The translations under genes and the position numbers were made by a program. From positions 1-38,926 of the forward strand of contig WFYJ01000099.1 in assembly GCA_015490175.1 (NCBI GenBank): 38,926 nt of DNA, written 5' to 3'. The DNA comes from Saprospiraceae bacterium. GTDB taxonomy: Bacteria; Bacteroidota; Bacteroidia; Chitinophagales; Saprospiraceae. The stretch's first letter is position 1; every line of letters begins with the position of its first letter. Of this stretch, positions 4,322-37,313 are shown one piece after another. The notes below the pieces were generated by a model that searched no databases, had not been told where the DNA came from, and saw nothing but the letters and a program-made list of their open reading frames with translations.

Positions 4322-4458
4322 CCAAGGATTTGACAAAAAACTGATAATCAGCAATAAAAACTCTCAACCCTCAAGCCTCAACCCTCAACCCTACACGCAA
4401 CACCTTTTGCAGCCGGTCCATTTTCGGGATGCGCAATCATCTATTCGCGAACACCACC
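4322..4458 (+). repeat. RepD copy 1 with heptamer array
   Basis: Starts with AAGGATTTGACAAAAAACTG and ends with GCGAACACCACC, like 36463-36592 and the inverted copy at 38589-38735. Between the conserved ends lie five 7-bp units (CTCAACC, CTCAAGC, CTCAACC, CTCAACC, CTACACG; 4363-4397). The other copies carry different heptamers at the same internal place. Confidence 0.8.
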
Positions 4459-14709: not shown

Positions 14710-14932
14710 GAGCCTACTGAAAAAAGTCCGTGACGGCCCCGAAAGTCGGGGTAACGCGTGACGCGTGTTCACTATAGATAACATGTTGATTTAAAATAAA
14801 AAATACATCGCGAATCGTTGCGTCCCCGACTTTGGTCGGGACAAGCTGTTGCGTCCCCGACTGGCGTCGGAGCCTGTCCCGGCCACCGGGAACAAGCTGT
14901 TGCGTGAGATTTTGGGTTTTTTCAGGGGCCTC
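14710..14932 (+). repeat. RepA copy 3, complete MITE-like element
   Basis: 223 bp, the best-preserved copy. Ends GAGCCTACTGAAAAAAGTCC and TTTTTTCAGGGGCCTC form an imperfect terminal inverted repeat. In order: hairpin CCCCGAAAGTCGGGG, two GACGCGT units, core CTATAGATAACATGTTGATT to GCGAATCGTTGCG, then three hairpins based on CCCCGAC/GTCGGGA, CCCCGAC/GTCGGAG and GTCCCGG/CCGGGAAC, two of them joined by AAGCTGTTGCG. It lies between two convergent genes. No flanking target-site duplication was evident by eye. Confidence 0.88.
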
Positions 14933-18060: not shown

Positions 18061-18062
18061 AG

Positions 18063-18135
18063 CGTGGCTCGTGGCTCGTTGGTGGTGGTCGTGGCTCGTT
18101 GGTGTTGGCTCGTGGCTCGTTGGTGGTGGCTCATG
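18063..18135. repeat. Heptamer satellite (GTGGCTC / GTTGGTG)
   Basis: Mixed 7-bp units GTGGCTC, GTTGGTG and GTGGTC begin 3 bp after the S41 stop codon and lead into the hairpin array at 18150. Confidence 0.8.
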
Positions 18136-18149
18136 GGCGGCTGAACATT

Positions 18150-18247
18150 CTCGCGCAACGGCATCTCAACATCACCGCGCAGCGGTGTCTCAACATCGCG
18201 GGCGCAGCCCGTGTATCAACCCCCGCGCAACGCGCGGTCTCAACCTT
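18150..18247 (-). repeat. RepF hairpin array 1 (TCAAC-punctuated)
   Basis: Successive hairpins with GCA or AAC loops: ACCGC-GCA-GCGGT, CGGGC-GCA-GCCCG, CCGCGC-AAC-GCGCGG, each separated by a short constant (TC)TCAAC(AT). Stem sequences differ but pairing is kept. Located between convergent genes (S41 and UvrD), where it may end transcription both ways. Confidence 0.75.
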
Positions 18248-18255
18248 CCTCCCTC

Positions 18256-21384: not shown

Positions 21385-21507
21385 GGCGTCGGGGATGAGG
21401 AAAGATGGCAAATTTTCGGCTTTTGGTTTTACTGCCGGAGACAGGTTGACAGGAAAAAATGCACCATGTCGATGGGCGATTTTCTTGCAGGAACCGGGGA
21501 TTTGAGG

Positions 21508-21600
21508 ATCTGAGCGAGGTTGGGATGCCGCTGCCCCAAAAAGTCGGGACAGGCTGCGGTGATGTTGGGGTCCCGATGCTCGGAGCCCGACCCTCAGCTC
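21508..21600. repeat. Degenerate RepF-like hairpin region
   Basis: GAGGTTGGGATGCCGC to GCGGTGATGTTGGGG, plus TCCCGATGCTCGGAGCCCGA, then CTCTCAACCTC. It has the same punctuation style as RepF but with imperfect stems. It overlaps the last codons of the O-antigen-ligase-like gene. Confidence 0.45.
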
Positions 21601-23788: not shown

Positions 23789-23814
23789 GCATCCTTTTTT
23801 TTCCGAAAGGGCAG

Positions 23815-23841
23815 CAAAGGTAAAAGTAATACGCAACGCAA
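23815..23841 (-). promoter_or_regulatory. Bacteroidota-type promoter for the glycan operon
   Basis: On the minus strand, TACCTTTGC (-7 consensus TAnnTTTG; TAnnTTTG part at 23815-23822) with TTG at 23839-23841 about 16 bp upstream (-33-like). The -7 match is full; the spacing is slightly short. Confidence 0.5.
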
Positions 23842-23860
23842 TGCGGGGTGGGAATTTGAG

Positions 23861-23951
23861 ATGGAGTGAAGGAGCGATTGAGCGAAGGAGTGACCGAGTG
23901 CACGGAATTTGCCTGAGGGGTGCCAAACGCTCAACGCTACACGCTCAACCT
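23861..23951. repeat. Octamer and heptamer satellites
   Basis: 8-bp units GGAGTGAA, GGAGCGAT, TGAGCGAA, GGAGTGAC (about 23866-23899), then 7-bp units CAAACGC, TCAACGC, TACACGC, TCAACC (23924-23950). They fill the gap between two minus-strand genes. Confidence 0.7.
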
Positions 23952-23984
23952 CAATCAGCGTGCCATGCGAGGGCAGGGCTTGCC

Positions 23985-24875
23985 TTACGGCAAAATGAGA
24001 TGGGTGGTGTTGTTGGTATTGTCGCACTCGCCGATGCCGAAGGTCTGCAACTGCAGGATGAGCACGTTGAGGTAGCGGGTGCGCGCGCGGATGTCGAAGC
24101 GGAAGCGGCCGCTCAGGGTTTGTCCGGGCTGCAGCACGTGGCCTTCCACCTTGCCGGTGGTGTGCAGCAGTTGATCGCCCAGCAGGATGGCGCCGCGCGT
24201 CAGCTCGGGCACTCCCGACACGTAGGCGGCGATACGGACGCCGTCGGCGCCGTCGTGGCGTTTGCCCTTGAGCGGTACGGGCCCCTTGCCTTTGTTGGTC
24301 ACCTTGAACTCGACCTCCATCCAGCGCTTGCCGGGCTCGGTGATGCGCACCTGTTCGAAAGCCAGGTCGCCACAAGGCAGCTCGTCGCGCTGCAGCGAGT
24401 CGTGGGTCCGATAGCCTTCGCCGCCCTTGGCGGAAAAGAGCACGCGGGGTGTGGCAGGGGCTTTCTGCTCGGCAGGTTGCTGTGCGAGCGGGCGCTCGAA
24501 CAGCCGGATCACCACGGTGCGCCGCCCCGACACTTCGCCGGGCTGCAGCACCAGGCGCTGCCCGAACAGCCCTTCGACGAACTGGCTGCGGTAGCCACCC
24601 AGTCGCGCCTCGAAAAAGCCGGGGTCGTAGTTGATGGTCACCCAGTGCGCCTGGTCGCGCCGCGACAGGTCGACGGGCTTGCTGCCGGTATTGACGATGG
24701 TGCAGCGCACCTTGATGAAGTCGGTAGCACGACGCACCACCTCCACGTCTTTGACGTAGAGCCGGTATCCACTGTAGCCCGATTGCGCCCGGGTGCCGTT
24801 TGGCGAAAGCCAGAAAAGGAAAAACACCCCGCCCCACAAAAGCAAGGAGTGTGTAAGTATGCGCTTGCCGTTCAT
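23985..24875 (-). CDS. Secreted protein with two CARDB-like domains
   Basis: 296 residues with a signal peptide (LLLWGGVFFLFWLSPNGTRAQ; cleavage near Ala30). Two Ig-like modules are suggested: VRCTIVNTGSKPVDL (about 55-70) and VEFKVTNKGKGPVPL (about 190-205), each followed by loops ending in patterns like LLHTTGKVEG and NTNNTTH. The NTG/NKG plus NTNN signature is typical of CARDB-type adhesion modules. No enzyme motif and no type IX sorting domain are visible at the C-terminus. Probably periplasmic or surface-associated. A TTACGGCAAAA variant of the hairpin word overlaps the stop codon. Confidence 0.75.
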   Translation of the reverse strand: MNGKRILTHSLLLWGGVFFLFWLSPNGTRAQSGYSGYRLYVKDVEVVRRATDFIKVRCTIVNTGSKPVDLSRRDQAHWVTINYDPGFFEARLGGYRSQFVEGLFGQRLVLQPGEVSGRRTVVIRLFERPLAQQPAEQKAPATPRVLFSAKGGEGYRTHDSLQRDELPCGDLAFEQVRITEPGKRWMEVEFKVTNKGKGPVPLKGKRHDGADGVRIAAYVSGVPELTRGAILLGDQLLHTTGKVEGHVLQPGQTLSGRFRFDIRARTRYLNVLILQLQTFGIGECDNTNNTTHLILP

Positions 24876-24969
24876 ATTGCAAAATCCGTGTGTCCGTAAT
24901 GGACCTGTCTCGTTCCTTTCAGAAACCTTGCCAAGTGGGTGTTCGGGCGGTGGGGTGCTTTGCTAACGC

Positions 24970-25491
24970 TCAATCTTCGCTTTCGTTGCCCATCTGGTTG
25001 AGAATGTCCACGGGCCGGTCGATGCTTTCGAGCAGTGAGATGAACGTCTCGGTGCGCTGGATGCCCTGGATCTTCTGGATCTTGTCGTGGAGCACTTCGC
25101 GCAGGTGCGTGGTGTCGCGGCACACGATCTTGGCGAAGATGTTGTAGATGCCGGTGGTGTAGTGTGCGGAGACGATTTCCGGAATCTGCTCCAACTGGGC
25201 GGCCACGTCGTCGTACAGGGAGCTCTTGTCGAGGTAGATGCCGAGAAAGGCCATGATGTCGTAGCCCAGCTTTTCGTAGTCGATCACGAGGTGGGCACCC
25301 TTCACCACGCCCATCTCCTCCATCTTGCGCATGCGCACGTGTACGGTGCCACTCGATACGTACAGCTCGCGGGCGATCTCGGTATAGGGTCGGGTGGCAT
25401 CGAGCATGAGCATGGAAAGGATCTTCAGGTCCAGTTCGTCCAGCTCGCGGCTCTTTTCCCTGTCTTTCTTCGTTCGGCCAGAGTGCGGCAT
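24970..25491 (-). CDS. Lrp/AsnC-family transcriptional regulator
   Basis: 173 residues from the ATG at 25491. Helix-turn-helix in LDELDLKILSMLMLDATRPY to VSSGTVHVRMRKMEEMGVV (about 18-65), then the ligand-binding ACT-like domain with YDIMAFLGIYL and HYTTGIYNIFAKIVC. Such regulators bind DNA as dimers or octamers and usually sense amino acids. It is divergent from an M20 amidohydrolase with a secretion signal, which could be a target, but no operator was recognised. The longer open frame upstream is a shadow through a 9-bp satellite. Confidence 0.92.
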   Translation of the reverse strand: MPHSGRTKKDREKSRELDELDLKILSMLMLDATRPYTEIARELYVSSGTVHVRMRKMEEMGVVKGAHLVIDYEKLGYDIMAFLGIYLDKSSLYDDVAAQLEQIPEIVSAHYTTGIYNIFAKIVCRDTTHLREVLHDKIQKIQGIQRTETFISLLESIDRPVDILNQMGNESED

Positions 25492-25556
25492 GTGGCTTGT
25501 CTTTTTTCGGCTTTCGCCAAAAATGAGGAAAAAGGATGAGATGGGGAAAATGGTCG

Positions 25557-25605
25557 AACCGGTGGAATCGGTCAAATCGGTGGAATCGGTGGAATCGGAG
25601 GACCT
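25557..25605. repeat. Nonamer satellite (GGTGGAATC)
   Basis: GGTGGAATC repeated with variants (GGTCAAATC, GGAGGACCT) in the Lrp/M20 divergent spacer. Confidence 0.8.
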
Positions 25606-25694
25606 GTTGGAAACCGGAAAGCAATCTCGACGGCCGTGCAGTGCAAATCCGACATTTTCCCCAAATTCACGGCTCAACCAAACGACTGCGAGCC

Positions 25695-27017
25695 ATGCGT
25701 TTTCTGACCCTGCTGTTGGCTTTGCTTCTGCTGGCACCTGCGCTCTCCGCCCAGACACCTGACTGGCTGGCCCGTGAAGTGGCGACCGATTACGCCGAGC
25801 TGGAAGCCTTTTACAAACACCTCCATCAGCATCCCGAGCTTTCGTTTTACGAATACCAGACCGCCGCCCGCCTGGCGACGGAGCTGCGCAAACTCGGCTT
25901 CGAGGTCACGGAAAAGGTAGGCGGCACGGGCGTGGTGGGCGTCCTGCGCAATGGCGAGGGGCCGGTCGTGCTGGTGCGCACCGACATGGACGCCCTGCCC
26001 GTCGAAGAGGCCACCGGCCTGCCCTATGCCAGCACCGTGCGCACCAGGGACGAGGCCGGCAACGAGGTGGGCGTGATGCACGCCTGCGGTCACGACATCC
26101 ACATGACCGTGTGGTTGGGAGCTGCCCGTGCCCTGGCGCGTCATCGCGACCGCTGGTCGGGCACGCTGGTCTTCATCGGGCAGCCCGCCGAAGAGCGCGG
26201 CGGCGGCGCCAAAGCCATGCTGGCCGACGGCCTTTACGAGCGCTTCCCCTATCCCGATTACGGGTTGGCGCTGCACGTCAGCTCCAACCTGCCGGCGGGC
26301 ACGCTCGGCTACTGCCCGGGCTACGCCATGGCCAACGTAGATATGGTGGATATCACGGTGCACGGCCGCGGCGGCCACGGCGCCTATCCGCACACCACCA
26401 TCGATCCGGTAGTGCTCTCGGCGCGCATCATCATGGCACTGCAGACCATTGTCAGTCGCGAAATATCGCCCATCGATCCGGCCGTGTTGACGGTAGGCGC
26501 CATCCATGGCGGCACCAAGGGCAACGTCATCCCCGACGACGTGCACCTGCAGCTCACCCTGCGCTCGTACAAGGAAGAAGTGCGCCAGGCGCTGATAGAC
26601 AAGATCAAGCGGATCTGCCGCGGCGAAGCCATCTCGGCCGGCCTGCCCGAAGATCTGATGCCCGAGATCGAGCTGCGGCCCGAACATACGCCCGCCCTGT
26701 ACAACGATCCCGAGCTGACGCAAAGGGTGGTGTCGGTGTTTCGGAACACTTTCGGCGACGAGCGCGTGGTGCCGCTCGAACCGGAAATGGTGGGCGAAGA
26801 CTTCGCCCGCTATGGACTGACCGAACCGCGCGTGCCCATCTTCATGTTTCGCCTCGGCGCAGCCGATCCAGAGCTGGTTGAGGCAGCCGCACGCGGCGAG
26901 GCCGTCCTGCCGTCGCTGCACTCGGCGCGCTTTGCGCCCGTGCCCGAGCCTGCCATCAAGACCGGCGTGACGGCTATGACCGAGGCCATCCTCCATTTGC
27001 TGGAAAGCAAAAAGTGA
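25695..27017 (+). CDS. Secreted M20-family metallo-amidohydrolase
   Basis: 440 residues with a signal peptide (MRFLTLLLALLLLAPALSAQ). Zinc-site motifs: RTDMDALP (95-102), HACGHDIH (129-136) and PAEERGGGAK (about 164-173); HSARFAP near the C-terminus supplies the last ligand. The insert GHGAYPHTTIDPV belongs to the dimerisation domain. Closest in style to the amidohydrolase/N-acyl amino acid hydrolase group (AbgB, IAA-amino acid hydrolase). It probably releases amino acids from acylated or dipeptide-like substrates in the periplasm. The start follows the signal peptide; the longer frame upstream is low-complexity. Confidence 0.92.
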   Translation: MRFLTLLLALLLLAPALSAQTPDWLAREVATDYAELEAFYKHLHQHPELSFYEYQTAARLATELRKLGFEVTEKVGGTGVVGVLRNGEGPVVLVRTDMDALPVEEATGLPYASTVRTRDEAGNEVGVMHACGHDIHMTVWLGAARALARHRDRWSGTLVFIGQPAEERGGGAKAMLADGLYERFPYPDYGLALHVSSNLPAGTLGYCPGYAMANVDMVDITVHGRGGHGAYPHTTIDPVVLSARIIMALQTIVSREISPIDPAVLTVGAIHGGTKGNVIPDDVHLQLTLRSYKEEVRQALIDKIKRICRGEAISAGLPEDLMPEIELRPEHTPALYNDPELTQRVVSVFRNTFGDERVVPLEPEMVGEDFARYGLTEPRVPIFMFRLGAADPELVEAAARGEAVLPSLHSARFAPVPEPAIKTGVTAMTEAILHLLESKK

Positions 27018-27026
27018 AGGTCTGGA

Positions 27027-27130
27027 GGGTTGAGATTCCGACTGAGGTCGGAACAGGCTTCACTGCGTTCGATGTTGAGATGCCGGCTTCGCCGGCAATG
27101 TCGGCACCGTTGTGCGGTGGTGTGGATACC
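27027..27130 (+). repeat. RepF hairpin array 2 (GTTGA-punctuated)
   Basis: GGTTGAGA then TTCCGAC-TGAG-GTCGGAA; TGTTGAGA then TGCCGGC-TTC-GCCGGCA; then CACCG-TTGTG-CGGTG. Two stems are 7 bp and perfect. It starts 10 bp after the M20 stop codon. Confidence 0.75.
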
Positions 27131-27321
27131 CTGGCTTCAGGATGGCTCGGGAAACTCAGAGGCCATTATGGTCAAAATCGGTGGAATCGGCACTCTTCCC
27201 TCCTCACTCCTCAATATCCATCGTCAAAAATTCCCGGACAGGCGGACGTGTCAGACGCACGGCCGTGCGTCCCTACACAACCTCCGGACGCACTGCCGTG
27301 CGTCCCTACGCTCTCTATCTC
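27131..27321. repeat. Convergent spacer with palindromes and a RepE fragment
   Basis: ATCGTCAAAAATTCCCGGAC (27227-27240) is a RepE piece. Two inverted repeats follow: palindrome ACGCACGGCCGTGCGT (27255-27270) and GGACGCAC-TGCC-GTGCGTCC (27286-27305), both followed by CCTAC. Ends with ATTCACTCC words. No gene seen. Confidence 0.65.
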
Positions 27322-28278
27322 TCATTCACTCCTTCTCAAAAGACCGAACCCGGCAGGCACCTTGCGGGGGGCGCGCAGCAGGTCTTCGAGGGCGCCTTCA
27401 AGCTCGGGGAACAGCCACCGGAAGTCGGTTTCTTCGAGCCAGCGGCGCGGCCGCACGCGTGTGCTATAGAGGACCGTGTCGGCCATTTCGCCCATGCCCA
27501 GGCGCAACAGCCACGCGGGCACGGGCATGCCAAGTGCCAGACCGCGCCGGGTGCGCGCGATGGTCTTGACGAAGTCTTTGAGCCGGACGGGGCTGGGACT
27601 GACGCCGTTCCATGGCCCGGTCAGGGTGGGGCGGGTGAGCAGGTAGTGGATCATGCGCACCAGGTCGGTCACGTGGATCCAGCTATACCACTGGCGGCCG
27701 TTGCCGAACCAGGGTGCCATGCCGAACAGGCCGGGCAGGGCCAGCGGCTTGAGCGCGCCGCCTTCGCGGGCCAGCACGATGCCGATGCGCAGGCGCGCCG
27801 TGGCGATGCCGAGCGCTTCTATCTGTTGGGCTGCTGCTTCCCACGCTACAGCCAGCTCTGTGAGGAAGCCGTGGGTGCCGCGATGGCTGTCTTCATCCAC
27901 CCATTCGTCGGCCCGATTGCCGTAATAGCCGATAGCCGAAGCGGCAATGTAGCGCCGGGGCTTTACCTTGAGCTCGGCAAGCGCATCGCGCAGCAACAAA
28001 GTGGCATCGACGCGGCTTGTGATCAGCTCCCGCTTGCGCGCGCTGGTCCATGGCCGATCGGCGATGCCGGCCCCGGCGAGGTTGATGACCGCATCCACCC
28101 CTTCGAGGGCCGCGCGATCGATCTGGCGGGTGCCTACGTCCCAGCGATAAGCGGAATAATCGCGCACCTTGTCGGGGTGGCGCGAAAGCAGTCTGACTTC
28201 ATATCCTTGCTTGCGCAAAAAGGGGCACAGGTGGCTGCCCACGAGACCCGTACCGCCGGCAATGAGGATGGTTTTCAT
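27322..28278 (-). CDS. TIGR01777-family NAD(P)-dependent epimerase/oxidoreductase
   Basis: 318 residues from the ATG at 28278, which puts the Rossmann motif IAGGTGLVGSHL at the N-terminus (residues 5-16). SDR-like features: VDAVINLAGAGI, ASAIGYYGNR with the active-site Tyr, and the C-terminal DUF1731-type segment LGMGEMADTVLYSTRVRPRRWLEETDF. Members are called YfcH/SulA-like; the substrate is unknown. Cytoplasmic. The 3' end meets the spacer of RepF array 2. Divergent from the peptide-binding lipoprotein gene. Confidence 0.93.
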   Translation of the reverse strand: MKTILIAGGTGLVGSHLCPFLRKQGYEVRLLSRHPDKVRDYSAYRWDVGTRQIDRAALEGVDAVINLAGAGIADRPWTSARKRELITSRVDATLLLRDALAELKVKPRRYIAASAIGYYGNRADEWVDEDSHRGTHGFLTELAVAWEAAAQQIEALGIATARLRIGIVLAREGGALKPLALPGLFGMAPWFGNGRQWYSWIHVTDLVRMIHYLLTRPTLTGPWNGVSPSPVRLKDFVKTIARTRRGLALGMPVPAWLLRLGMGEMADTVLYSTRVRPRRWLEETDFRWLFPELEGALEDLLRAPRKVPAGFGLLRRSE

Positions 28279-28365
28279 GATATAGCTTGTAATTTGGATG
28301 GCAAGGCAAAAAGAACTTGTCGCTCCATGCAATGCAATACAACGACTGGCACAATGATTTCAAAT

Positions 28366-28393
28366 TTTGTTCATTTGTCATTTGTGATATTTG
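28366..28393 (+). promoter_or_regulatory. Possible promoter of the peptide-transport genes
   Basis: TTTG at 28366-28369 and GATATTTG at 28386-28393, 16 bp apart, 54 bp before the ATG. Partial match to the -33/-7 pattern. Confidence 0.35.
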
Positions 28394-28446
28394 CAAGGCC
28401 TCCCGAGAGAAAACGCTATTTTGCACGATCAACAATTCGAAATTTA

Positions 28447-30249
28447 ATGCGATTCCACAGATTCCTGCCCCTGCCGGGTGCGCTGGCGCTACTGCTTTCG
28501 CTCTCTGCCTGCAAGCGCGATGGTGAAACCACACAGCCGGAAGAAGGTTTCGAAGTCACCGTACGGCTGCCCTCCGAACCCGATCGGCTCAACCCGCTCA
28601 CCTACAGCTCCGCCTATGCGCTGCAAGTGTTCGAATTGACACATCAGCCGCTGATGAACTTCAATCCCGAGACGCTGCAGCTCGATCCTGTACTCATCGA
28701 AGATCGGCCTGCGGCTGCCGACATCACCGAGGGGCCCTGGGCAGGTGGCGTGGCCTATACCTTCAAAATTCTCGATGAGGCCGTGTGGGACAACGGCCGG
28801 CCGGTGACGGGCTACGACGTGGCCTTCTCGCTCAAGGCGCTGTTCAACCCGCACGTGCAGGCCCAGCGCTTGCGGCCCTATCTGGAAATGGTGCGCGAGG
28901 TGCGCATCGATCCGGACGACCCGCGGCGCTTCACGGTACTGACCGACCAGAAGTACATTCTGGGTGAGGCTGCGGTGAGCAACGTGACCGTCTTGCCCGA
29001 GTATGCCTATGACCCCGACACGCTCATGCGCCGCTATGCGCTGGCCGAGCTGACCGACCCGGCCCTGGCCGGCCGCTGGGAAAACGATACTACACTCATC
29101 CGCTTTGCCGAAGCATTCAATGGGGCGCGCTATGCGCGCGAACCCGGCTACGTTATCGGCTCGGGTCCCTATCGGCTGCTGGAGTGGGTGAGTGGCGAGC
29201 GGCTCGTGCTGGAGAAGAAAGAATCCTGGTGGGGCGATGCCCTTGCCGATCGCTATCCGATGTTGCTGGCGCGCCCGACGCGCATTTTCTTCAAGGTGAT
29301 CACAGATGCCTCGGCGGCGGCCCTGGCGCTGCGCAGTGAGGGCTTCGACGTGTCGGCACAGATGGACGTGCAGGACTTCCTCACGCTGCGCGACGACCCG
29401 CAGGTGGCGGCGAAGTACAATTTCTTCACCCCGCCCACCAACATCTATTACTTCATCTACCTCAACATGCGCAATCCCAAGCTGAGCGATCGGCGGGTGC
29501 GCCGGGCGCTGGCCCACCTGGTGGATGTGGATGCCATCATCGAACAGGCCTTCAACGGGCTGGGCATCCGCACCAACGGTCCCATTCACCCCGACAAGGA
29601 ATACTACGATGCCTCTTTGCCGCTCATCGAGTACGACCCCGAGCGGGCGCGCCAGCTTTTGGCGGAAGCCGGCTGGACCGACACCAATGGCAATGGCATC
29701 GTGGACAAAGAGCTGAATGGCCGACGCATCGAGATGCAGTTGCAGTTCACCATCAACACCGGCAGCAAGTTTGCCGAAGAGCTGGCTCTCATGGTGCAGG
29801 AGCAGGCCCGACGCGGCGGGGTGGCTATCGAGGTGACTCCCAAAGAGGTGAGTGCCCTGCGGCAGGCGTTGGTGCAGCGCGACTTCGAGCTGGCCGCCGG
29901 TGCTTTTGCCGCCGATCCCGTGCTGTACGACGACCTCAAGCAACTCTACCACTCTACGAGCGACCGCCCTGACGGCTTCAACCGGTTCGGCATCCACAAC
30001 GCCGAGCTCGATCAGGTGCTCGACGAAATCCAGGTGACGCTGGACAAGGACCGCCTCTTTGCTCTCTACAAGAAGATGCAGCGCATCATTTACGAAGAGC
30101 AGCCCCAGATCTTCCTGTTCATCCCTCAGGAGCGCATCGTCATCCACAAGCGCTTCGAGGCCAGGGCATCGGCGCGCAAACCGGGCTACTACGTGCCACA
30201 CTTCCGGCTGAATCCGGACTGGGATTCGGGTGCCAAAAATGCTGAGTGA
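28447..30249 (+). CDS. Peptide/nickel-type ABC substrate-binding lipoprotein (SBP_bac_5)
   Basis: 600 residues from the ATG at 28447. Lipoprotein signal with lipobox LSAC (Cys22). Family pattern: VRLPSEPDRLNPLTYSSAYAL at the start, DEAVWDNGRPVTGYDVAFSL, IGSGPYRLLEWVSGERLVLEK and RRALAHLVDVDAIIEQAFNG. It binds oligopeptides or similar ligands on the outer face of the inner membrane. The frame is open for another 445 codons upstream, but that stretch is antisense to the TIGR01777 gene and repeats. The next gene overlaps its stop by one base (TGATG). Confidence 0.93.
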   Translation: MRFHRFLPLPGALALLLSLSACKRDGETTQPEEGFEVTVRLPSEPDRLNPLTYSSAYALQVFELTHQPLMNFNPETLQLDPVLIEDRPAAADITEGPWAGGVAYTFKILDEAVWDNGRPVTGYDVAFSLKALFNPHVQAQRLRPYLEMVREVRIDPDDPRRFTVLTDQKYILGEAAVSNVTVLPEYAYDPDTLMRRYALAELTDPALAGRWENDTTLIRFAEAFNGARYAREPGYVIGSGPYRLLEWVSGERLVLEKKESWWGDALADRYPMLLARPTRIFFKVITDASAAALALRSEGFDVSAQMDVQDFLTLRDDPQVAAKYNFFTPPTNIYYFIYLNMRNPKLSDRRVRRALAHLVDVDAIIEQAFNGLGIRTNGPIHPDKEYYDASLPLIEYDPERARQLLAEAGWTDTNGNGIVDKELNGRRIEMQLQFTINTGSKFAEELALMVQEQARRGGVAIEVTPKEVSALRQALVQRDFELAAGAFAADPVLYDDLKQLYHSTSDRPDGFNRFGIHNAELDQVLDEIQVTLDKDRLFALYKKMQRIIYEEQPQIFLFIPQERIVIHKRFEARASARKPGYYVPHFRLNPDWDSGAKNAE

Positions 30250-31655
30250 TGTATCTGCTTCGCCGGCTGGTGCTGTCGCTGTTTACGCTGTGGGTGCTGT
30301 CCATGCTGGTGTATGGACTGAGCACGCTGGTGCCCGGCGATCCGGTATTGCGTTTCCTTCCGGAAAACCCCACCCACGGAGGACTGCAACAGATGGAAAG
30401 GGCCGAGCAGCAGTACCGGCGGCTGGCGGCCTCGCTCGGCCTGGACAAGCCGCCCTTTTACTTCAGCATTCGCCCGGCAGCATGGCCCGACACGCTCTGG
30501 CGCATCCAGCCCCTGACGCGCCGGCGCGCCCTGGACCATCTGACGGGGCGCTACGGCAACTGGCCGCTCGTGCAGGAATGGTATCGCGACCTGCGCGTCC
30601 TCGAACGTGCCCTTGCCGCCATGCCTGCCGACGGACGCAAGCTGCTGCTCGACGAGACCCAGCGCCTCGTGACCTCCCTGACCATTGCCGACAATCCGCT
30701 CATCATCCGTACGACGCTGCGCCAGCTTGGCGAGGTGGTGGCGTCCGACAGCACGCTGTCGCGCACCCTCTCGCCCCTCATCGAAGCGGCAGGCCTGACC
30801 TTTGCGCGCCTCGAAGACCAGGCCACGCCGGCCCGCTGCTATGTGCCCGACTTCAAGTGGTACGGCTTCGACAACCGCTACCAATGGTGGATGGGGCAGT
30901 TGCTCAGCGGTGAAATGGGCATCTCGCTGCTCGACAGCAGGCCCGTGCGCGACAAGCTGAGCGATGCCCTGGTCTGGACGCTGATGCTCAATCTCCTGTC
31001 GCTGGCACTGGTGTGGCTGCTGGGCATCCCGCTGGGTCTGTGGACGGGGCGGAAGGCCCGCCACCCTATAGCCCGGGCGGTGACGGCGGCGCTCGACCTG
31101 CTCTACAGCATGCCGTCGATGTGGGTGGCCATGCTGCTGCTGGTGTTCTTCACCACGCCCATGTTCGGCATGGACTGGTTCGAAGGCATCTGGTTGTCGG
31201 ATGTGCCCGTACATGCCTCGATCGGGGAGCGCCTGGCGGCCATGAGCCACCACATGGTATTGCCGGTCATCTGTCTTACCTATCCGGTGCTGGCTTTCTT
31301 CGTCAGGCAATTGAAGCAGGGAATGGCACATGCCCTGCAGCAGGAATACGTGCGTGCGGCACGCGCGCGAGGGCTGAGCGAGCGCGCCATCGTCTGGCGC
31401 CATGCTTTCCGCAATGCCCTTTTTCCGCTCATCACCATCGCGGGCCAGATGGTGCCCCGCCTCTTTGCCGGCTCGGTCATCATCGAAACCATTTTCAACA
31501 TACCCGGCATCGGTCGGCTCATCTACGACTCCATCCTGCGCCAGGACTGGCCCGTGGCTTTTGCCGGAGTGATGATCACCGCCGTGCTGACCATCCTGGG
31601 CTACCTGCTGACCGACTTCCTGTACCACCGCGCCGACCCACGCGTGCGGTTTTGA
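30249..31655 (+). CDS. DppB/OppB-like ABC permease with long periplasmic insert
   Basis: 468 residues, well above the 310-340 usual for DppB. First helix LLRRLVLSLFTLWVLSMLVYG (3-23), then about 190 residues of soluble, mostly helical sequence (30-220), then the standard permease with GEMGISLLDSRPVRDKL, five helices and the EAA loop AARARGLSERAIVWRHAFRNALFPL. An in-frame GTG lies one codon earlier; ATG overlaps the upstream stop (TGATG). It forms half of a peptide importer pore. The usual DppC partner and both ATPases are absent; after it comes repeat DNA and the convergent dnaB. Confidence 0.9.
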   Translation: MYLLRRLVLSLFTLWVLSMLVYGLSTLVPGDPVLRFLPENPTHGGLQQMERAEQQYRRLAASLGLDKPPFYFSIRPAAWPDTLWRIQPLTRRRALDHLTGRYGNWPLVQEWYRDLRVLERALAAMPADGRKLLLDETQRLVTSLTIADNPLIIRTTLRQLGEVVASDSTLSRTLSPLIEAAGLTFARLEDQATPARCYVPDFKWYGFDNRYQWWMGQLLSGEMGISLLDSRPVRDKLSDALVWTLMLNLLSLALVWLLGIPLGLWTGRKARHPIARAVTAALDLLYSMPSMWVAMLLLVFFTTPMFGMDWFEGIWLSDVPVHASIGERLAAMSHHMVLPVICLTYPVLAFFVRQLKQGMAHALQQEYVRAARARGLSERAIVWRHAFRNALFPLITIAGQMVPRLFAGSVIIETIFNIPGIGRLIYDSILRQDWPVAFAGVMITAVLTILGYLLTDFLYHRADPRVRF

Positions 31656-31680
31656 CGAGGGAGTGAAGAGCGAGGGAGCG

Positions 31681-31775
31681 AGGTTGAGACCGCTACGCGG
31701 ATGTTGAGATTCCGACAGGTCGGATCCTGTCCCGGATACGGGAACAGGCGCCCCCGGGCAGGGCTGGTTGAGTCA
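31681..31775 (+). repeat. RepF hairpin array 3 (GTTGA-punctuated)
   Basis: GGTTGAGA CCGC-TAC-GCGG; TGTTGAGA TTCCGAC-AG-GTCGGAT; CCTGTCCCGGATACGGGAAC; CCCCCGGGCAGGG; then GGTTGAG. Located between convergent dppB-like and dnaB genes. Confidence 0.75.
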
Positions 31776-31834
31776 ATATCCTGACAATCAACTTCAAAAA
31801 AACGCTTACCCCTCAACCTGGCCAAAAGCTGCGC

Positions 31835-31890
31835 GCAAACTGCGTTCATCTGCGACCGAAGGCTGCGGTTTTTGGCTGAGGAATCGTCGA
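31835..31890 (+). repeat. RepC copy 2
   Basis: GCGCGCAAACTGCG, CTGCGACCGAAGGCTGCGG, TTTTTGGCTGAGGAATCG; then a GAGGAACGAG linker into RepB copy 2. Confidence 0.75.
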
Positions 31891-31901
31891 GGAACGAGCC
31901 T

Positions 31902-31993
31902 GCTGAAAAAAGTCGAAAAATCATTTCAGTTACACAGAGATCCACTGAGCACGCACTGATTTTCACAGAGTTGTAAAACCTGAACGCTCAACC
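31902..31993 (+). repeat. RepB copy 2
   Basis: CCTGCTGAAAAAAGTCGAAA, TCATTTCAGTTACACAGAGA, CCACTGAGCACGCACTGATT, TTCACAGAGTTGTAAAACC and heptamers TGAACGC, TCAACCT. Same order as 14500-14587 (inverted). A piece of RepD (CTTTTTGCAG) follows before dnaB. Confidence 0.8.
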
Positions 31994-32030
31994 TTTTTGC
32001 AGGGGGACCCAATCCTCGCATCTTCGAACA

Positions 32031-33566
32031 TCAGAACGGGACCTCCTCGTCGGGATCGGGCCGGAGGGTATCGGTGTTCATCTTCGAAGGCACCTGGATG
32101 AAGCCGGCGCCACTGTCGAATGCTTCGCTGAAGTCGCCGCCACCGAGGAAGGGGTCGGTGGGTTCGTTGAACAGACCGATCTCGTTTTCGAAACGCAGCT
32201 TGATGGTCTCAGTGGGGCCGTTCCGATGCTTGGCGATGATGAGCTCGGTGATGCCCACCAGCGATTCTCCCTCTTCCGACTCGGTCATGCCGTAGTAGTC
32301 GGGGCGGTAGAGAAACGACACGATATCGGCATCCTGTTCGATGGCACCCGACTCGCGCAGGTCGGAGAGCTGGGGCCGCTTTTCGCCACCGCGCGTCTCG
32401 ACGGCCCGGCTGAGCTGCGACAGGGCAATTACCGGCACGTTCAGCTCCTTGGCCAGCCCTTTGAGTGCGCGCGAGATGGAGCTGATTTCCTGCTCGCGGT
32501 TTCCTTTTCGGGTGTCGGGGCCACCCGACATGAGCTGCAGGTAATCGATGATGATGAGCTGGATGTCGTGCTTGCTTTTGAGGCGCCGACATTTGGCGCG
32601 CAGCTCGAAAATGTTGATGCCCGGCGTGTCGTCGATGAAGATGGGCGCCTCGCTCAGCTCTTCGATGGCTTTGACCACCTGCTGCCACTCGGCTTCGTCG
32701 AGCTTGCCATTGCGGATGTTGGTACCCTTGACACGCGACTGCATGGCCAGCAGGCGTTGCATGAGCTGCAGACTTGCCATCTCGAGTGAGAAAACGGCCA
32801 CGGCCTTTTTGTATTCCATGGCCACGTTGCGCGCTACGTTGAGGACGAAAGCCGTCTTGCCCATGGCGGGGCGTGCCGCTACAATGATGAGGTCGGAGGG
32901 CTGGAAACCGGAAGTGACGCGGTCGAGCGACGGATAGCCCGAGGGCACGCCGGTGAGGCCGTCCGTCTTTTTGCGCAGCTCTTCGAGGTGGCTCAGCAGT
33001 TGAGAGGCCAGGCTGCTGGCCGTATCGTATTCGCGTTTGAGGTTGGTGGTCGTCACTTCGTACAGGTGCTGCTCTACCTTGTCGAGCAGGTCGAACACGT
33101 CGGTGGTATCGCTATAGGCGTCCTGCAGCACCTCGGTGGCGATGTGGATCAGCTCGCGCATCATGTGCTTTTGCGCGATAATGCGGGCGTGGTGCTCGAT
33201 GTTGGCCGAAGAGGCTACCCGCAGCGACAGCTCGGACAGGTAGGCGCGACCGCCGGCCGCTTCGAGCTCCCCCTGCCGCGCCAACTGGTCGGCCACGGTC
33301 AGCACGTCGATGGGACGCGACTGAGTGAAGAGGTTGACCATGGCCTTGTAAATCATACCATGCCGCTCGTCGTAGAAGCTGTCGGGGGTGAGGATGTCCA
33401 TCACGTCGTGAAAGGCATCGCGGTCGAGCAGCAGGGCGCCCAACACGGCCTGTTCCACCTCGACGGCCTGTGGAGGCACGCGCGCCATCAGGGCGGCGGC
33501 ATCCGAAGCGCGGTGCAGGCGTGGGTGCTTCCGGGCGGGCTGTCTGCTTTTGTCCTTTTCTGCCAT
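32031..33566 (-). CDS. dnaB: Replicative DNA helicase DnaB
   Basis: 511 residues from the ATG at 33566. N-terminal domain from VPPQAVEVEQAVLGALLLD to about residue 170, then linker, then RecA-like ATPase: Walker A AARPAMGKTAF, Walker B IQLIIIDYLQLM, the DnaB pattern LKGLAKELNVPVIALSQLSR and RPQLSDLRESGAIEQDADIV. Hexameric helicase that unwinds DNA at the replication fork. No intein interrupts the ATPase motifs. The basic N-terminal 25 residues are variable. The longer upstream frame lacks family similarity. Confidence 0.97.
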   Translation of the reverse strand: MAEKDKSRQPARKHPRLHRASDAAALMARVPPQAVEVEQAVLGALLLDRDAFHDVMDILTPDSFYDERHGMIYKAMVNLFTQSRPIDVLTVADQLARQGELEAAGGRAYLSELSLRVASSANIEHHARIIAQKHMMRELIHIATEVLQDAYSDTTDVFDLLDKVEQHLYEVTTTNLKREYDTASSLASQLLSHLEELRKKTDGLTGVPSGYPSLDRVTSGFQPSDLIIVAARPAMGKTAFVLNVARNVAMEYKKAVAVFSLEMASLQLMQRLLAMQSRVKGTNIRNGKLDEAEWQQVVKAIEELSEAPIFIDDTPGINIFELRAKCRRLKSKHDIQLIIIDYLQLMSGGPDTRKGNREQEISSISRALKGLAKELNVPVIALSQLSRAVETRGGEKRPQLSDLRESGAIEQDADIVSFLYRPDYYGMTESEEGESLVGITELIIAKHRNGPTETIKLRFENEIGLFNEPTDPFLGGGDFSEAFDSGAGFIQVPSKMNTDTLRPDPDEEVPF

Positions 33567-33632
33567 GATGCTGAGGTATGATTGAGGGCGCGTTCGACAG
33601 GGACACGCACCGACGATGGGGTTGGTTCGTTG

Positions 33633-33640
33633 CAAAACTA
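33633..33640 (-). promoter_or_regulatory. Possible -7 box of the dnaB promoter
   Basis: TAGTTTTG followed by C on the minus strand, a full TAnnTTTG match, 66 bp before the dnaB ATG. A TTG-containing -33 box lies farther away than usual (about 26 bp). Confidence 0.4.
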
Positions 33641-33834
33641 CGACCTGAAGCGCCTGTGCGAAAGGGCAATTTTTCCACCCCGGTGCCGAAAAGGCGTGCA
33701 AAAATGGAAACTTCCGCTGCGTCGAGGCGAGTTGAGGTGTTTTGAAAGTATTGATATTCAGCGCTTTGCAAACATCCTGTCAATGTGGAAAACCCGAAAG
33801 GGCGGTATTTTGCGAAAGCGCCCCCTGGCTCGGC

Positions 33835-34503
33835 TCACTGGTCGAACGATCCGAGGCGACGGCGCACTTCTTCTACGGCCTTCTTTTGCATTTCGATACG
33901 CAGGCGCGTGTCTTCCTGTGCCTTTTCGTTTTCGGCGATACTGGCTTTCATCTTGCGGATGGTCTCTTCGGCCTTGCGGATGGCTTCCTCATAGTTTTCC
34001 TTGTCGCGTTGCAGGCGCGTCAGCTCGCGTTCCAGTTCCTTGAGTTTGCGTTCCTGCTCTTTCAGTTCCATTTCGGTGAGTCGCTTTTGCACGTAGCGTT
34101 CGAACCGGGTCATGAGCTGCATGGCGCCATCGAAGGCGGCGGGTTCATTTTCGGGCCCTACGAAACTGCCGTCTTTGAGCTGGAACCATACCGTGAGCTC
34201 GCTCTCATTCGATCCGGCCTTTTCCACCAGCGCGTACACATTGACCGGGTCGCTGCCACCCACCGCGATGAGTTCCATGCCGGCAGCCAGCCATTCGCCT
34301 TCGCCTCTCACCTTTTTGGTCTTGCCGTCGTAATCTTTGAGGAAGTCGCGCCAGAAGCGCTCGGCCTGTCGTGCATCGGCAGGCAGGTTCAGCTTGATGC
34401 CCGGATACACACCCAGCGACATGGCTTTTTCCACGGAAACGGGCTGGGCGATGCTGCACGGAATACACAGCAGGAGGAAAAATCCGACGAGTATGGTTCT
34501 CAT
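33835..34503 (-). CDS. Secreted coiled-coil protein, unknown function
   Basis: 222 residues with a signal peptide (MRTILVGFFLLLCIPCSIAQ). Residues 25-130 look globular (YPGIKLNLPADARQAERFWRDFLKDY; GEWLAAGMELIAVGG; TVWFQLKDGSFVGPENEP). Residues 135-215 form an unbroken charged coiled coil. Probably periplasmic. AAAGGAAG just before the ATG resembles a ribosome-binding site, although very close to it. No family recognised. It is upstream of dnaB on the same strand but 268 bp away, and divergent from the phosphatase gene. Confidence 0.75.
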   Translation of the reverse strand: MRTILVGFFLLLCIPCSIAQPVSVEKAMSLGVYPGIKLNLPADARQAERFWRDFLKDYDGKTKKVRGEGEWLAAGMELIAVGGSDPVNVYALVEKAGSNESELTVWFQLKDGSFVGPENEPAAFDGAMQLMTRFERYVQKRLTEMELKEQERKLKELERELTRLQRDKENYEEAIRKAEETIRKMKASIAENEKAQEDTRLRIEMQKKAVEEVRRRLGSFDQ

Positions 34504-34571
34504 ACTTCCTTTGTTTTGATCGGGCAAGATGCAAGATATTGAGAAAAACGTGAGGCTGCCTCGAGGGCCGG

Positions 34572-34589
34572 TTTTGCCTTTCGGCAAAA
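34572..34589. repeat. Hairpin word TTTTGCC-TTTC-GGCAAAA
   Basis: Perfect 7-bp stem, the longest copy of the word (GAAA loop on the minus strand). In the spacer between the secreted coiled-coil gene and the phosphatase gene. Confidence 0.8.
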
Positions 34590-34773
34590 GAAGCCCGGCG
34601 GCATGCCACTCAGAGGAATCGAATGAACGGGTCTTTTGTTGCAAAGGGTGGGCATTATTCTCAAAACGGGCCGGCCTTTTCGCCGAATGGGCGAAATGTA
34701 TTTCGCGCTGATTTGCTGCACTTTTTATGTCACATAGTTGAGGAAACAGGGCCGGTGTTTGGCTGTGCCTTTC

Positions 34774-34781
34774 TATCTTTA
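34774..34781 (+). promoter_or_regulatory. Possible -7 box for the phosphatase gene
   Basis: TATCTTTA, near the TAnnTTTG consensus, 79 bp before the ATG at 34861. A TTTG lies only about 12 bp upstream, so the spacing is poor. Confidence 0.3.
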
Positions 34782-34860
34782 CCACCACACAGGCAGATGG
34801 CAAGCAGATCACGCGAAGTGCTGATCGGGCGTCGTGTGCCTGTTCCACCAAAACCGGAAC

Positions 34861-36126
34861 ATGTCCATGTCCACGTCATTGGAACATACGAGACCATACG
34901 GCACCCTCAGCCAGCTGGAGCGCGAGCTGAACCTCAAACAGCTCCAGATCAACCGCCTGCTCGACATCACTCAGGCCATCAACAACAATGTTTCGGCTCA
35001 GGGCCTGTTCGACATGTACCGTTCGTTCCTGAGCTGGGAGATGGGGGTGCGCAAGATGGCCCTTTTTTCGCGCCAGCAAGAAGTGTGGAAATGTACTTCC
35101 TGGATCGGCATCGATCCGGCCGAGGTGCCCGCAGACATCGGCCAGCGGCTGGCCCGGTTCAAGCGCCTGACCAACCACCTGCCCGAAGATGAACCCTTCT
35201 TTCGCGCATTCGACCTGGTCATTCCCGTATATCACAAGCAGACGCCGCTGGCCTTCGTGTTCATCGGTGGCCTGGACGAGGAAGACCTTTTCAGCAAGGT
35301 GCAGTTCATCACTACGATCACCAACATCATTGCCGTTGCCATCGAAAACAAGCGCCTGTTCAAGCGCCAGCTCGAGCAGGAACGGCTCAAGCAGGAAATG
35401 AAGCTGGCGGCCGAGATGCAGCGCATGCTCGTGCCGGGGCGGCTCCCTGCCACGCCCCATTACCAACTGGCCAGCATCTATCAGCCGCATCTGGGCGTAG
35501 GTGGCGATTACTTCGACTTCATCGAGCTCGACGACGGCCGCATCGTCTTCTGCATTGGCGACATTACGGGCAAGGGACTGGCTGCGGCCCTGCTCATGGC
35601 CAGCTTCCAGGGCACCTTCCACAGCCTGGTAGGCCTGTACGACTCGCTGAGCGAGCTGGTACACGCCCTCAATGCCGCCGTGGTGCGCACTACGGGCGGC
35701 GAGCGCTTCATCACCCTGTTCCTCGCCCGATACGATGTGCGCACGCGCACGCTCGAGTACATCAATGCCGGCCACGCAGCGCCGCTCCTGGCCATGAAGG
35801 GCGAGGTGATGCGCCTGGACAAGGGCGGCACTTTTCTGGGGTCGTTTGCCGAGCTGCCCTTCATCGAAGAGGGCCGTGTCCAACTGGACGGCGAGGCACT
35901 GCTGGTGAGCTTTACCGATGGCTTCTCCGACCTTCGCAACGCCGCCGGCGAGTTTCTCGACGACGTCTTCAAGCCTGATTTCCTGCTGGCACACATGCAC
36001 CTCGATGCCGAAGCCTTCAACCAGGCACTTCTGGGCCACATCCAGCAGTTCGCTACCGGGCAAGCCTGGCCCGACGACTTTACCGTGCTGACCTGCAAAT
36101 TTTTCAAAAAGGAACAGGCTGAGTGA
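34861..36126 (+). CDS. GAF-SpoIIE (PP2C-type) serine/threonine phosphatase
   Basis: 421 residues from the ATG at 34861 (a second ATG is two codons later; a GTG at 34834 is possible). N-terminal GAF-like sensor (about 25-175), coiled linker (FKRQLEQERLKQEMKLAAEM, about 175-195), then the phosphatase domain with metal-binding GGDYFDF (Gly214-Phe220; Asp216), FCIGDITGKGLAAALLMA, INAGHAAPLL and SFTDGFSD. Such proteins reverse phosphorylation of anti-sigma-factor antagonists in partner-switching networks. No RsbW- or RsbV-like gene is adjacent, so the partner must be elsewhere. Cytoplasmic. Confidence 0.93.
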   Translation: MSMSTSLEHTRPYGTLSQLERELNLKQLQINRLLDITQAINNNVSAQGLFDMYRSFLSWEMGVRKMALFSRQQEVWKCTSWIGIDPAEVPADIGQRLARFKRLTNHLPEDEPFFRAFDLVIPVYHKQTPLAFVFIGGLDEEDLFSKVQFITTITNIIAVAIENKRLFKRQLEQERLKQEMKLAAEMQRMLVPGRLPATPHYQLASIYQPHLGVGGDYFDFIELDDGRIVFCIGDITGKGLAAALLMASFQGTFHSLVGLYDSLSELVHALNAAVVRTTGGERFITLFLARYDVRTRTLEYINAGHAAPLLAMKGEVMRLDKGGTFLGSFAELPFIEEGRVQLDGEALLVSFTDGFSDLRNAAGEFLDDVFKPDFLLAHMHLDAEAFNQALLGHIQQFATGQAWPDDFTVLTCKFFKKEQAE

Positions 36127-36130
36127 GCTT

Positions 36131-36180
36131 TATACTCAACGCAATTCGGTTTGGGAATTATTGACGCCAGTCAATAGACG
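36131..36180 (-). repeat. RepE copy 3 (inverted)
   Basis: Begins 5 bp after the phosphatase stop: TATACTCAACGCAATTCGGT, TTGGGAATTATTGACG, AATAGACGATTTTCTGAGA. Followed by GATGGAGTGAGG satellite words. Confidence 0.75.
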
Positions 36181-36228
36181 ATTTTCTGAGATGGAGTGAG
36201 GAGAGAGGAGTGAAAAGGGAGTGACCGA

Positions 36229-36317
36229 CCGCGCAAACTGCGTCAGCGCTGCGTCTATCTGCGGCCGAAGGCTGCGGTTTTTGGCTGAGCAACCGAGGAA
36301 TCGAGGAATCGAGGATT
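36229..36317 (+). repeat. RepC copy 3 and GAGGAATC octamer linker
   Basis: CGCGCAAACTGCG, CTGCGGCCGAAGGCTGCGG, TTTTTGGCTGAG, then GAGGAATC, GAGGAATC, GAGGATTT units leading into RepF array 4. Confidence 0.75.
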
Positions 36318-36425
36318 TGAGTGAGGTTGAGACCGCTGCGCGGATGTTGATTCCGACAGATCGGAACAGGTGCCCGGCTGCGCCGGCTTGTTGATACGCC
36401 GCAAAGCGGCGTGTTGAGAGGGCCT
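36318..36425 (+). repeat. RepF hairpin array 4 (GTTGA-punctuated), best copy
   Basis: GAGGTTGAGA CCGC-TGC-GCGG; ATGTTGA TTCCGA-CAGA-TCGGAA; CAGGTGC CCGGC-TG-CGCCGG; TTGTTGA TACGCCGC-AAA-GCGGCGT; GTTGAGA. Four stems of different sequence, each able to pair, each introduced by GTTGA or a near variant. Confidence 0.8.
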
Positions 36426-36462
36426 TTTGATGAAGGAGGAACTGAGGAACCGAAGAATCGAG

Positions 36463-36592
36463 GATTTGACAAAAAACTGATAGTCAACAAGAAAAACTTT
36501 AAACGCTAAACGCTAAACCCTACACGCAACACCTTTTTGCACCCGGCTCATTTTCCGGATGTGAGATCATCTGTTCAAGGACGCCACCCACT
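36463..36592 (+). repeat. RepD copy 2 with heptamer array
   Basis: GAGGATTTGACAAAAAACTG, TAGTCAACAAGAAAAAC, heptamers TAAACGC, TAAACGC, TAAACCC, TACACGC (36500-36527), then AACACCTTTTTGCACCCGGC, TTTTCCGGATG and TGTTCAAGGACGCCACC. Confidence 0.85.
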
Positions 36593-36617
36593 CAATCACA
36601 TCACCGGATTCCTCTAC

Positions 36618-36692
36618 CCCATGACCCACGACCCATAACCCATGACCCACGACCCACGACCCACGAGCTACGAGCTACGAGCTACGACCCAC
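36618..36692. repeat. Heptamer satellite (ACCCACG / AGCTACG)
   Basis: About ten 7-bp units: mostly ACCCACG or ACCCATA/ACCCATG, then AGCTACG three times, then ACCCAC. Immediately precedes the nicotinamidase promoter region. Confidence 0.9.
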
Positions 36693-36761
36693 AAGCCTGT
36701 TCAACCAAATTGCCCTGCATTTGGTAGTATTGGGGAAATCTTCCAACAAAACCGCGAAACC

Positions 36762-37313
36762 ATGGAAAAGAAAGCCCTCATCATCGTGGACGTGCAGAAC
36801 GACTTTTGCCCGGGCGGCGCGCTGGCCGCACCCGAGGGCGACAAGGTCGTGCCGGTCATCAACAAGCTGGTGGATCAGTTCGACTACGTGCTGGCCAGCA
36901 AGGACTGGCATCCGGCCGACACGGTCCACTTCCAGAAATGGCCTGTGCACTGCGTAGCCGGCACGCCCGGCGCTGAATTCCATCCCGACCTGCGTACCGA
37001 CAAGATCGACCAGGTGCTGCTCAAAGGCACGGGCAACAAGGACGACGGCTACTCGGCTTTCGAAGCCACCAACGTAGATCTGGCCGAGTGGCTGCGCGCG
37101 CACGAAGTGGACGAGGTCTATGTCACGGGCCTGACGACGGAATACTGCGTCAAATCCACGGCACTGGACGCCGTCAAAAACGGCTTCCGCACGTTCGTCA
37201 TCCGCGATGCAGTGCGCCCCGTCAATCCGGCCGACGAGGAAGCCGCCTATCGCGACATGGAAGCGGCCGGCATCCAGGTGGTGACCTCCAGCGACGTGCT
37301 GCAACCTGCCTGA
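36762..37313 (+). CDS. pncA: Nicotinamidase (isochorismatase family)
   Basis: 183 residues from the ATG at 36762. Catalytic triad Asp10 (IIVDVQNDF), Lys88 (VLLKGTG) and Cys129 (LTTEYCVKST); metal ligands Asp48, His50 and His56 in SKDWHPADTVHF; WPVHCVAGTPGAEF is typical of PncA. It deamidates nicotinamide to nicotinate for NAD salvage in the cytoplasm. Length matches bacterial PncA. The long frame upstream runs through the heptamer satellite. Convergent with the arginase-fold gene, 7 bp apart. Confidence 0.94.
   Translation: MEKKALIIVDVQNDFCPGGALAAPEGDKVVPVINKLVDQFDYVLASKDWHPADTVHFQKWPVHCVAGTPGAEFHPDLRTDKIDQVLLKGTGNKDDGYSAFEATNVDLAEWLRAHEVDEVYVTGLTTEYCVKSTALDAVKNGFRTFVIRDAVRPVNPADEEAAYRDMEAAGIQVVTSSDVLQPA

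Follow-up and report, generated by a model that had tools for sequence, protein, structure and literature searches.

What kind of repeat keeps its linker while its palindromes change? The question is posed by the window, by which we mean the whole stretch of 38,926 nt analysed here, contig C99 (WFYJ01000099.1), one of 291 in a 4.14 Mb Saprospiraceae genome (G000). Four clear arrays of small hairpins and a degenerate one had been described in it by the first-pass annotation, and all five are present where it placed them, as reading their sequences and mapping the hairpins showed. The array at 36318..36425, with GTTGA on the + strand, lies between a gene for a SpoIIE-domain protein (+) and an isochorismatase gene (+). 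It holds, all on the + strand, the hairpins CCGC-TGC-GCGG (36333..36343, preceded by GGTTGAGA), TTCCGA-CAGA-TCGGAA (36351..36366, preceded by ATGTTGA), CCGGC-TGC-GCCGG (36374..36386, with no GTTGA to introduce it) and ACGCCGC-AAA-GCGGCGT (36396..36412, with TTGTTGAT on one side and GTTGA on the other). The array at 31681..31775 (+) begins 28 nt past the stop codon of a permease gene (+) and has a DnaB gene (-) on its far side. At 27027..27130 (+), the stems TTCCGAC/GTCGGAA and TGCCGGC/GCCGGCA follow the stop codon of an M20 peptidase gene (+) by about 12 nt, with an SBP_bac_5 gene (+) beyond. At 18150..18247 GTTGA is on the - strand and the stems are CCGCGC, CGGGC and CACCGC; this array starts 11 nt past the stop codon of a UvrD-like helicase gene (-), towards which an S41 peptidase gene (+) converges. 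The degenerate array (21508..21600, +), flanked by two - strand genes, has GTTGG in place of GTTGA and only 4-bp stems.

Within each clear array of the window the linkers all point one way; linkers of mixed direction occur in a few arrays elsewhere in the genome (C138, C164 and C184). Two details of the original description have to be amended. GTTGA does not precede every hairpin, TCCCG/CGGGA and CCGGC/GCCGG hairpins being preceded by other linkers, and two of the four clear arrays (18150 and 31681), not three, are convergent, those at 27027 and 36318 being co-directional. The array observation as first described is partly confirmed. Rfam 15 gave no match at gathering score across the window.

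The arrays are genuine and greatly exceed chance expectation. The unit pattern GTTGAGAY-N(9-23)-GTTGA occurs 106 times genome-wide and once in the reversed control; without the pyrimidine requirement the figures are 153 and 9. Requiring a pyrimidine after GTTGAGA excludes most of a heptamer repeat, and heptamer-like units were excluded by pattern or script. From the 100 of 106 units listed, 72 distinct units were obtained, and perfect stems of at least 4, 5 and 6 bp are present in 50, 28 and 13 of them, compared with means of 11.4, 2.2 and 0.3 (maxima 21, 8 and 3) when the cores of the 72 units are letter-shuffled. The first-pass annotation had proposed a comparison of GTTGA-adjacent hairpins with shuffled sequence, and they are indeed enriched: intergenic hairpins with a stem of at least 5 bp lie within 10 nt of GTTGA or TCAAC 32 times in 40 stretches (444.7 kb), against 9.65 ± 3.2 in 20 dinucleotide shuffles. 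Normalised to its own frequency, GTTGA is enriched only 1.19-fold beside hairpins, below words of another hairpin family, because a GGTTGAG heptamer repeat makes it frequent between genes; the unit pattern is the stronger test of chance. Stems of at least 6 bp reach 2.88 per kb in G000 (1.03 shuffled) and 2.74 in the congener G001 (1.14 shuffled), and besides G000 three genomes of the family have intergenic hairpins in excess of shuffles, so that general hairpin richness is not special to G000.

Part of the family is a single recurring composite. With 36300-36450 as the query, 53 matching pieces were found genome-wide, and composite copies make up 19 of 45 arrays, including those at 31681 and 36318; the other 26 are plain. 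Comparison of 30 loci shows that the composite starts with GGTTGAGA, CCGC-tgc-GCGG, ATGTTGA, TTCCGAC-GTCGGA, TCCTG, TCCCG-gata-CGGGA and ACAGG, and that CCGGC-tgc-GCCGG, CTTGTTGA and then either CGCTGGC-tct-GCCAGCG or CGCCGC-aaa-GCGGCG follow. At some loci modules are absent or duplicated. Composite copies are flanked by a AGGAACCG-like repeat, which in the window lies at 36287..36320 (+) with a second copy at 36436-36469. Plain arrays, such as 18150-18247, share the linker with the composite and carry other stems. The composite copies are amplification, and a special palindrome-making machine is therefore unneeded for them. The first-pass annotation had called for such a mechanism throughout; either gradual compensation or template switching would be a sufficient candidate route to the diverse stems. 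Its ever-changing palindromes are likewise half of the picture: 24 stems occur among the 50 distinct hairpin-bearing units, with CCGC/GCGG dominating, and yet one composite recurs with its module order constant. Array or composite pieces also lie within about 350 nt of several contig ends (C32, C57, C67, C138, C154 and C220), as if they had broken the assembly. A miniature inverted-repeat transposable element (MITE) with inward terminal inverted repeats was considered and rejected: a scan reaching 700 nt out from each array found TIR-like ends on the two flanks of 1 of 26 plain arrays and of 1 of 19 composite ones, a count that misses short or divergent ends and includes loci cut at contig ends.

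Pairing is kept in part of the family. Covariation was scored by position only, with arms permuted, so that the relatedness of units remains in the permutations. Among the 15-nt cores (n = 9), Watson-Crick pairs number 48 of 54 against 31.6 permuted, and none of 1000 permutations reaches 48. The 11-nt cores (n = 18), the commonest class and mostly CCGC/GCGG, have 66 of 72 pairs against 64.6 and thus no covariation; six have a single arm altered and one has matching alterations in both, and this module looks like recent, loosely constrained copies. The 16-nt cores (n = 5) have 25 of 30 pairs against 20.4 (54 of 1000 permutations), and the 17-nt cores (n = 4) are uninformative. It is from covariation in the 15-nt class and its absence in the 11-nt class that we draw the partial maintenance of pairing, and the claim of a constant linker with varied palindromes is to that extent borne out. 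Wobble asymmetry, which would mark an RNA strand, gives no signal (7 G.T and 5 A.C among 19 mismatches).

A link of the arrays to gene ends, on which the first-pass annotation had staked its reading, was found in G000. Gene calls came from our own codon model, arrays were located by one pattern, and the counts concern one draft genome; its examined loci hold 46 distinct arrays, of which 35 have both neighbours, ten are missing one in their locus and one is internal to a called gene. When the array inside the called gene is excluded, a hairpin is present within 120 nt in 42 of 45, and a few arrays are therefore pattern matches only. Seventeen of the 35 are convergent, 13 co-directional and 5 divergent, as against 22, 105 and 53 of the 180 background gaps of at least 150 nt; the convergent enrichment (17/35 vs 22/180, Fisher p = 4e-6) persists without the window's own arrays (15, 12 and 5 of 32; p = 2e-5). 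On unbiased contigs, 4 of 8 arrays (6 of 11 with the window) are convergent, as against 11 of the 106 places occupied by eight other repeat modules (p = 0.010 if the window is left out, 0.0012 if it is included). Convergent and co-directional settings together account for 30 of 35 arrays, yet also for 127 of 180 long gaps, and the excess is confined to the convergent ones.

Relative to the GTTGA strand the upstream gene is sense in 32 cases and antisense in 10, with plain (18:6) and composite (14:4) arrays concordant; between co-directional genes the preference for one strand is weak (8 to 5). An array starts within 60 nt past a same-strand stop codon in 18 of 42 cases, where random placement gives 8.4%, and an antisense upstream gene lies within 60 nt in 2 of 42 (11% by random placement). 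Eight of the 32 sense arrays begin within 15 nt, three of these overlapping the stop codon, and in two of them (L069 and L034) the TGA of the stop codon doubles as the TGA of the first linker. Promoter avoidance alone would explain part of this placement. REPs lying no more than 15 nt from a stop codon reportedly stall ribosomes (PMC12306157).

How old are the arrays, and how widely are they shared? Proteins encoded next to them were matched in 748 kb of the congener G001 for 21 of 82, and five arrays have both neighbours adjacent there. None of these five gene pairs holds such an array in G001. Gaps between the alignments measure about 246, 223, 82, 22 and 21 nt in G001 and 608, 539, 137, 356 and 106 nt in G000. 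One of the five retains an older hairpin, CCCGCGA/TCGCGGG, in G000 and G001 alike, with the mosaic located after it. Several comparable gaps carry other repeat material in G000 that is absent from G001. Between the gene pair of array 19 (L008/L228), the sequence surrounding GCCCGGCTCCAGGT-GGCGGGAAGAGCCGGGCAGTGGGACGATGGTA is conserved in the two species, unlike the remainder of the gap; it is possibly a small RNA or a motif.

The composite had no match outside G000 among 60 genomes (G000 and 59 relatives). When 248 genomes of the family were scanned with the unit pattern, two species of genus g42 stood out, G225 (146+150 against 0+1 in the control) and G154 (62+66 against 3+2); G050 has a weaker excess (10+11 against 1+1), G044, G221 and some others a moderate one, and in G042 (g42) and G001 (g1) the excess is not clear. 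G084 (162 vs 14) is largely a simple repeat, the 29 of its 162 matches that were listed being almost all GTTGAGAYT repeats and not hairpins. Class-wide, a narrower pattern matched 28 times in G000 (0 in the control) and at most twice in each of the rest of 295 genomes, only three of them within the family. In contigs of named relatives, a search that may omit the window's own genome, a first pattern gave no match, and a second picked out 28 stretches, for the most part simple GTTGAGAT repeats or sequence resembling coding DNA, of which none is array-like by eye; viral contigs gave no pattern match.

The g42 species G154 and G225 have the same linker with other hairpins, which also covary. Their distinct units, 44 and 53, come from the listed part of totals of 128 and 296, with about two listed units omitted in each (GTTGA repeats or no hairpin). 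Covariation in G154 appears at stem pairs 2, 5 and 6 of the 30-nt units (25 distinct; 2, 2 and 26 of 500 permutations) and at pair 3 of the 35-nt units (15 distinct; 14 of 15 paired against 7.5; 0 of 500 permutations). In G225, 1 of 20 arrays begins within 60 nt past a sense gene and the upstream genes are 10 sense and 7 antisense, that is, there is no link to gene ends. Some GTCC/GGAC loops of G225 (L308, L290, L302 and L307) are replaced by a longer stretch with the palindrome CGAT-TACT-ATCG, a hairpin inside a hairpin. Further hairpin arrays with unrelated linkers occur at L171 1-187 (G024) and L180 4364-4588 (G002).

Among known systems, REPs and BIMEs come closest. REPs form mosaics of palindromes, each with a constant tetranucleotide in front (PMC8266576), and they share with the arrays short extragenic palindromes, a constant tag at the foot, mosaic grouping, many copies and a position mainly downstream of genes, in convergent or co-directional gaps (PMC3733652, PMC8266576). 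The differences are equally clear. The tag is GTTGA(GA) here and GTAG or CGTC in REPs; the palindrome is not conserved; the genome has no Y1_Tnp match (PF01797, E <= 0.001); and the alternation of REP and inverted REP in BIMEs is absent from the unidirectional arrays of the window. Since tag, conserved palindrome, RAYT and alternation all fail, we do not file the arrays as REP. CGTC REPs are themselves said to be without a RAYT, which is thus no strict requirement (PMC3733652). The earlier statement that the arrays are unlike REP accordingly stands for tag, palindrome and transposase and falls for the general plan, constant-tagged palindromes in mosaics being what REPs are too.

Other comparisons are more distant. 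The stem-loop repeat families of bacterial genomes are also dispersed, intergenic and foldable (PMC2267715, PMC1590033), and unlike the arrays they are, as far as these sources describe them, defined by sequence similarity; in the arrays the stems differ, and linker and pairing are constant. CRISPR arrays combine identical repeats with foreign spacers beside cas genes, whereas here the variable parts are the palindromes. Mitochondrial double-hairpin elements are tandem small hairpins said to vary with compensation; they are organellar. Literature searches listed no description of elements like the arrays for this bacterial group.

We therefore read the arrays, with a probability of about 0.5, as a REP/BIME-like interspersed mosaic repeat that is recognisable by its constant linker GTTGAGA and a kept small-hairpin shape and not by one palindrome. 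By analogy, there is an even chance that they also work as REPs do, though they are not classed with them. Blocks would spread by DNA copying or recombination and would persist where they are least harmful or somewhat useful, which would be at gene 3' ends. There, hairpins able to fold on either strand may hold up exonucleases or polymerases and shield converging genes from one another, a role already proposed for REPs. New stems may form in two steps, one arm changing first and the other then being brought into match by selection or by template-switch repair. Several results weigh against this reading: RNA folds of whole arrays in the window (n = 8) do not consistently beat shuffles (z from -2.40 to +0.28), the 11-nt class does not covary, the G225 arrays have no gene-end link, the co-directional strand bias is weak, and richness in hairpins is general in the family. 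The interpretation given by the first-pass annotation is partly supported.

A more specific proposal, which we consider unlikely, is a single-stranded-DNA mobile repeat whose TCAAC-strand minihairpins (C-GNA-G triloops; GA-flanked stems in the other genus) are recognised and copied by a strand-specific enzyme. It is similarly doubtful that such an enzyme acts as TnpA-REP or IS200/IS605 transposases do while being a different one. Read on the TCAAC strand, the triloop is GNA in 36 of 41 distinct units of G225 (12 of its 53 having no qualifying triloop hairpin) and in 12 of 35 of G000, the reverse orientation giving 0 and 1; among the remaining intergenic triloop hairpins of G000, 34 of 214 have GNA or TNC. 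GA stands on both sides of 28 of 32 GCC/GGC stems in G225, and in G154 the A.G and G.A columns between two short stems are near-invariant (25/25 and 24/25) amid varying, covarying pairs. Because GA pairs and GNA loops are confined to the TCAAC strand, this strand is suggested to be the one that folds. GNA loops and tandem GA are known as unusually stable motifs. The DNA energy model folds the window units alike on both strands and does not predict the GNA/GA hairpin of G154 and G225, and RNA pair probabilities weakly favour the TCAAC strand, which scores higher in 11 of 18 plain arrays and 14 of 19 composite ones. Recognition of REPs as single-stranded DNA is strand-specific and uses mismatches and loops (PMC8266576). 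Several observations count against a copying enzyme of this kind: Y1_Tnp is unmatched at the above threshold in G000 and G001 (three of eight relatives have it), AAA loops occur in about half of the distinct 30-nt units of G154, and no clean insert bearing repeated target sites was seen at the five sites comparable between G000 and G001. In its widest form, a repeat family conserved by linker and single-strand shape instead of palindrome sequence, read by a strand-specific enzyme other than Y1/RAYT and patchy in two genera of one family with differing stem sets, the proposal would be just as tentative.

Somewhat less probable again is a mutational by-product, in which functionless GTTGA tandem repeats and adjacent inverted repeats are kept perfect by template switching during replication. 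Template switching is able to create and repair perfect hairpins (PMC8794818) and would explain perfect stems that change in both arms; it is a mutation process and not an element, and predicts neither linker nor placement. GTTGA is also found as a simple repeat without hairpins, and some stems occur with reverse-complement loops (CCGC with tac/gta, ata/tat and gcg/cgc; CGCTGGC with tct/aga). Such loop inversion, however, amounts to 3 pairs against 1.14 expected (P = 0.064), with 4 in a complement-only control, and the position past stop codons and the invariant GA columns of G154 are left unexplained.

Bidirectional intrinsic transcription terminators between genes, for which the first-pass annotation had invoked selection, would fit the convergent gaps and nearby stop codons, but are quite improbable: a GC-rich stem followed by a T-tract does not characterise the arrays, T-tracts being rarer at their hairpin ends (13 of 258) than at other intergenic ones (142 of 1326), so that the intrinsic kind is not supported, many stems are of just 4-5 bp, 18000-37000 of the window has 20 terminator-like sites against 15.2 ± 4.2 expected with one (36374-36386) inside arrays, and the G225 arrays are without a gene-end link.

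For the preferred reading, a REP/BIME-like mosaic repeat, the interest lies in what is held constant. Palindromic interspersed repeats are usually recognised by conserved sequence; here the linker is constant, and the palindromes vary yet stay paired. Since this is so in two genera, two questions are testable in one system, namely whether a repeat can propagate by shape alone and whether paired changes of the arms come from selection or template switching. The stop-proximal arrays are candidates for 3'-end control.

Other repeats accompany the arrays. A second family of hairpin arrays (window 61-183, 4213-4280 and 14800-14916; also L082, L083, L094, L097 and L106) has linkers ACAGG and ACAAGCT, the words most enriched beside hairpins, and varied stems such as TTCCGAC/GTCGGAA, TCCCGG/CCGGGA and CCGAC/GTCGG. 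A third kind joins the GTTGAGA linker to larger fixed stems, GGGGCC/GGCCCC, GGTCGTGCG and CAAGCGCCGCCC (L079 5303-5438, L083 10950-11092, L095 6407-6550 and L113 1-125). Repeat ends of the form TATACTCAA..CAA..GGTTCGGGAA lie in the window at 14976 (-) and 36130 (+) and at 35 places in 748 kb of G000, with none in 748 kb of G001; four inward pairs are less than 1.5 kb apart, and these ends are possible TIRs of a mosaic element. Intergenic heptamer (and 21-nt) tandem repeats, for example CACGCGT, AACCCTC and CCCACGA, occupy window positions 222-304, 4359-4392, 18063-18136 and 36618-36692. The window also contains a PorP/SprF gene, which points to Bacteroidota. Finally, the hairpin GCC-GAAA-GGC is frequent, with 149 copies in 748 kb of G000 and 60 in 748 kb of G001, and in the window it occurs at 9576, 9887, 16265, 18895 and elsewhere.
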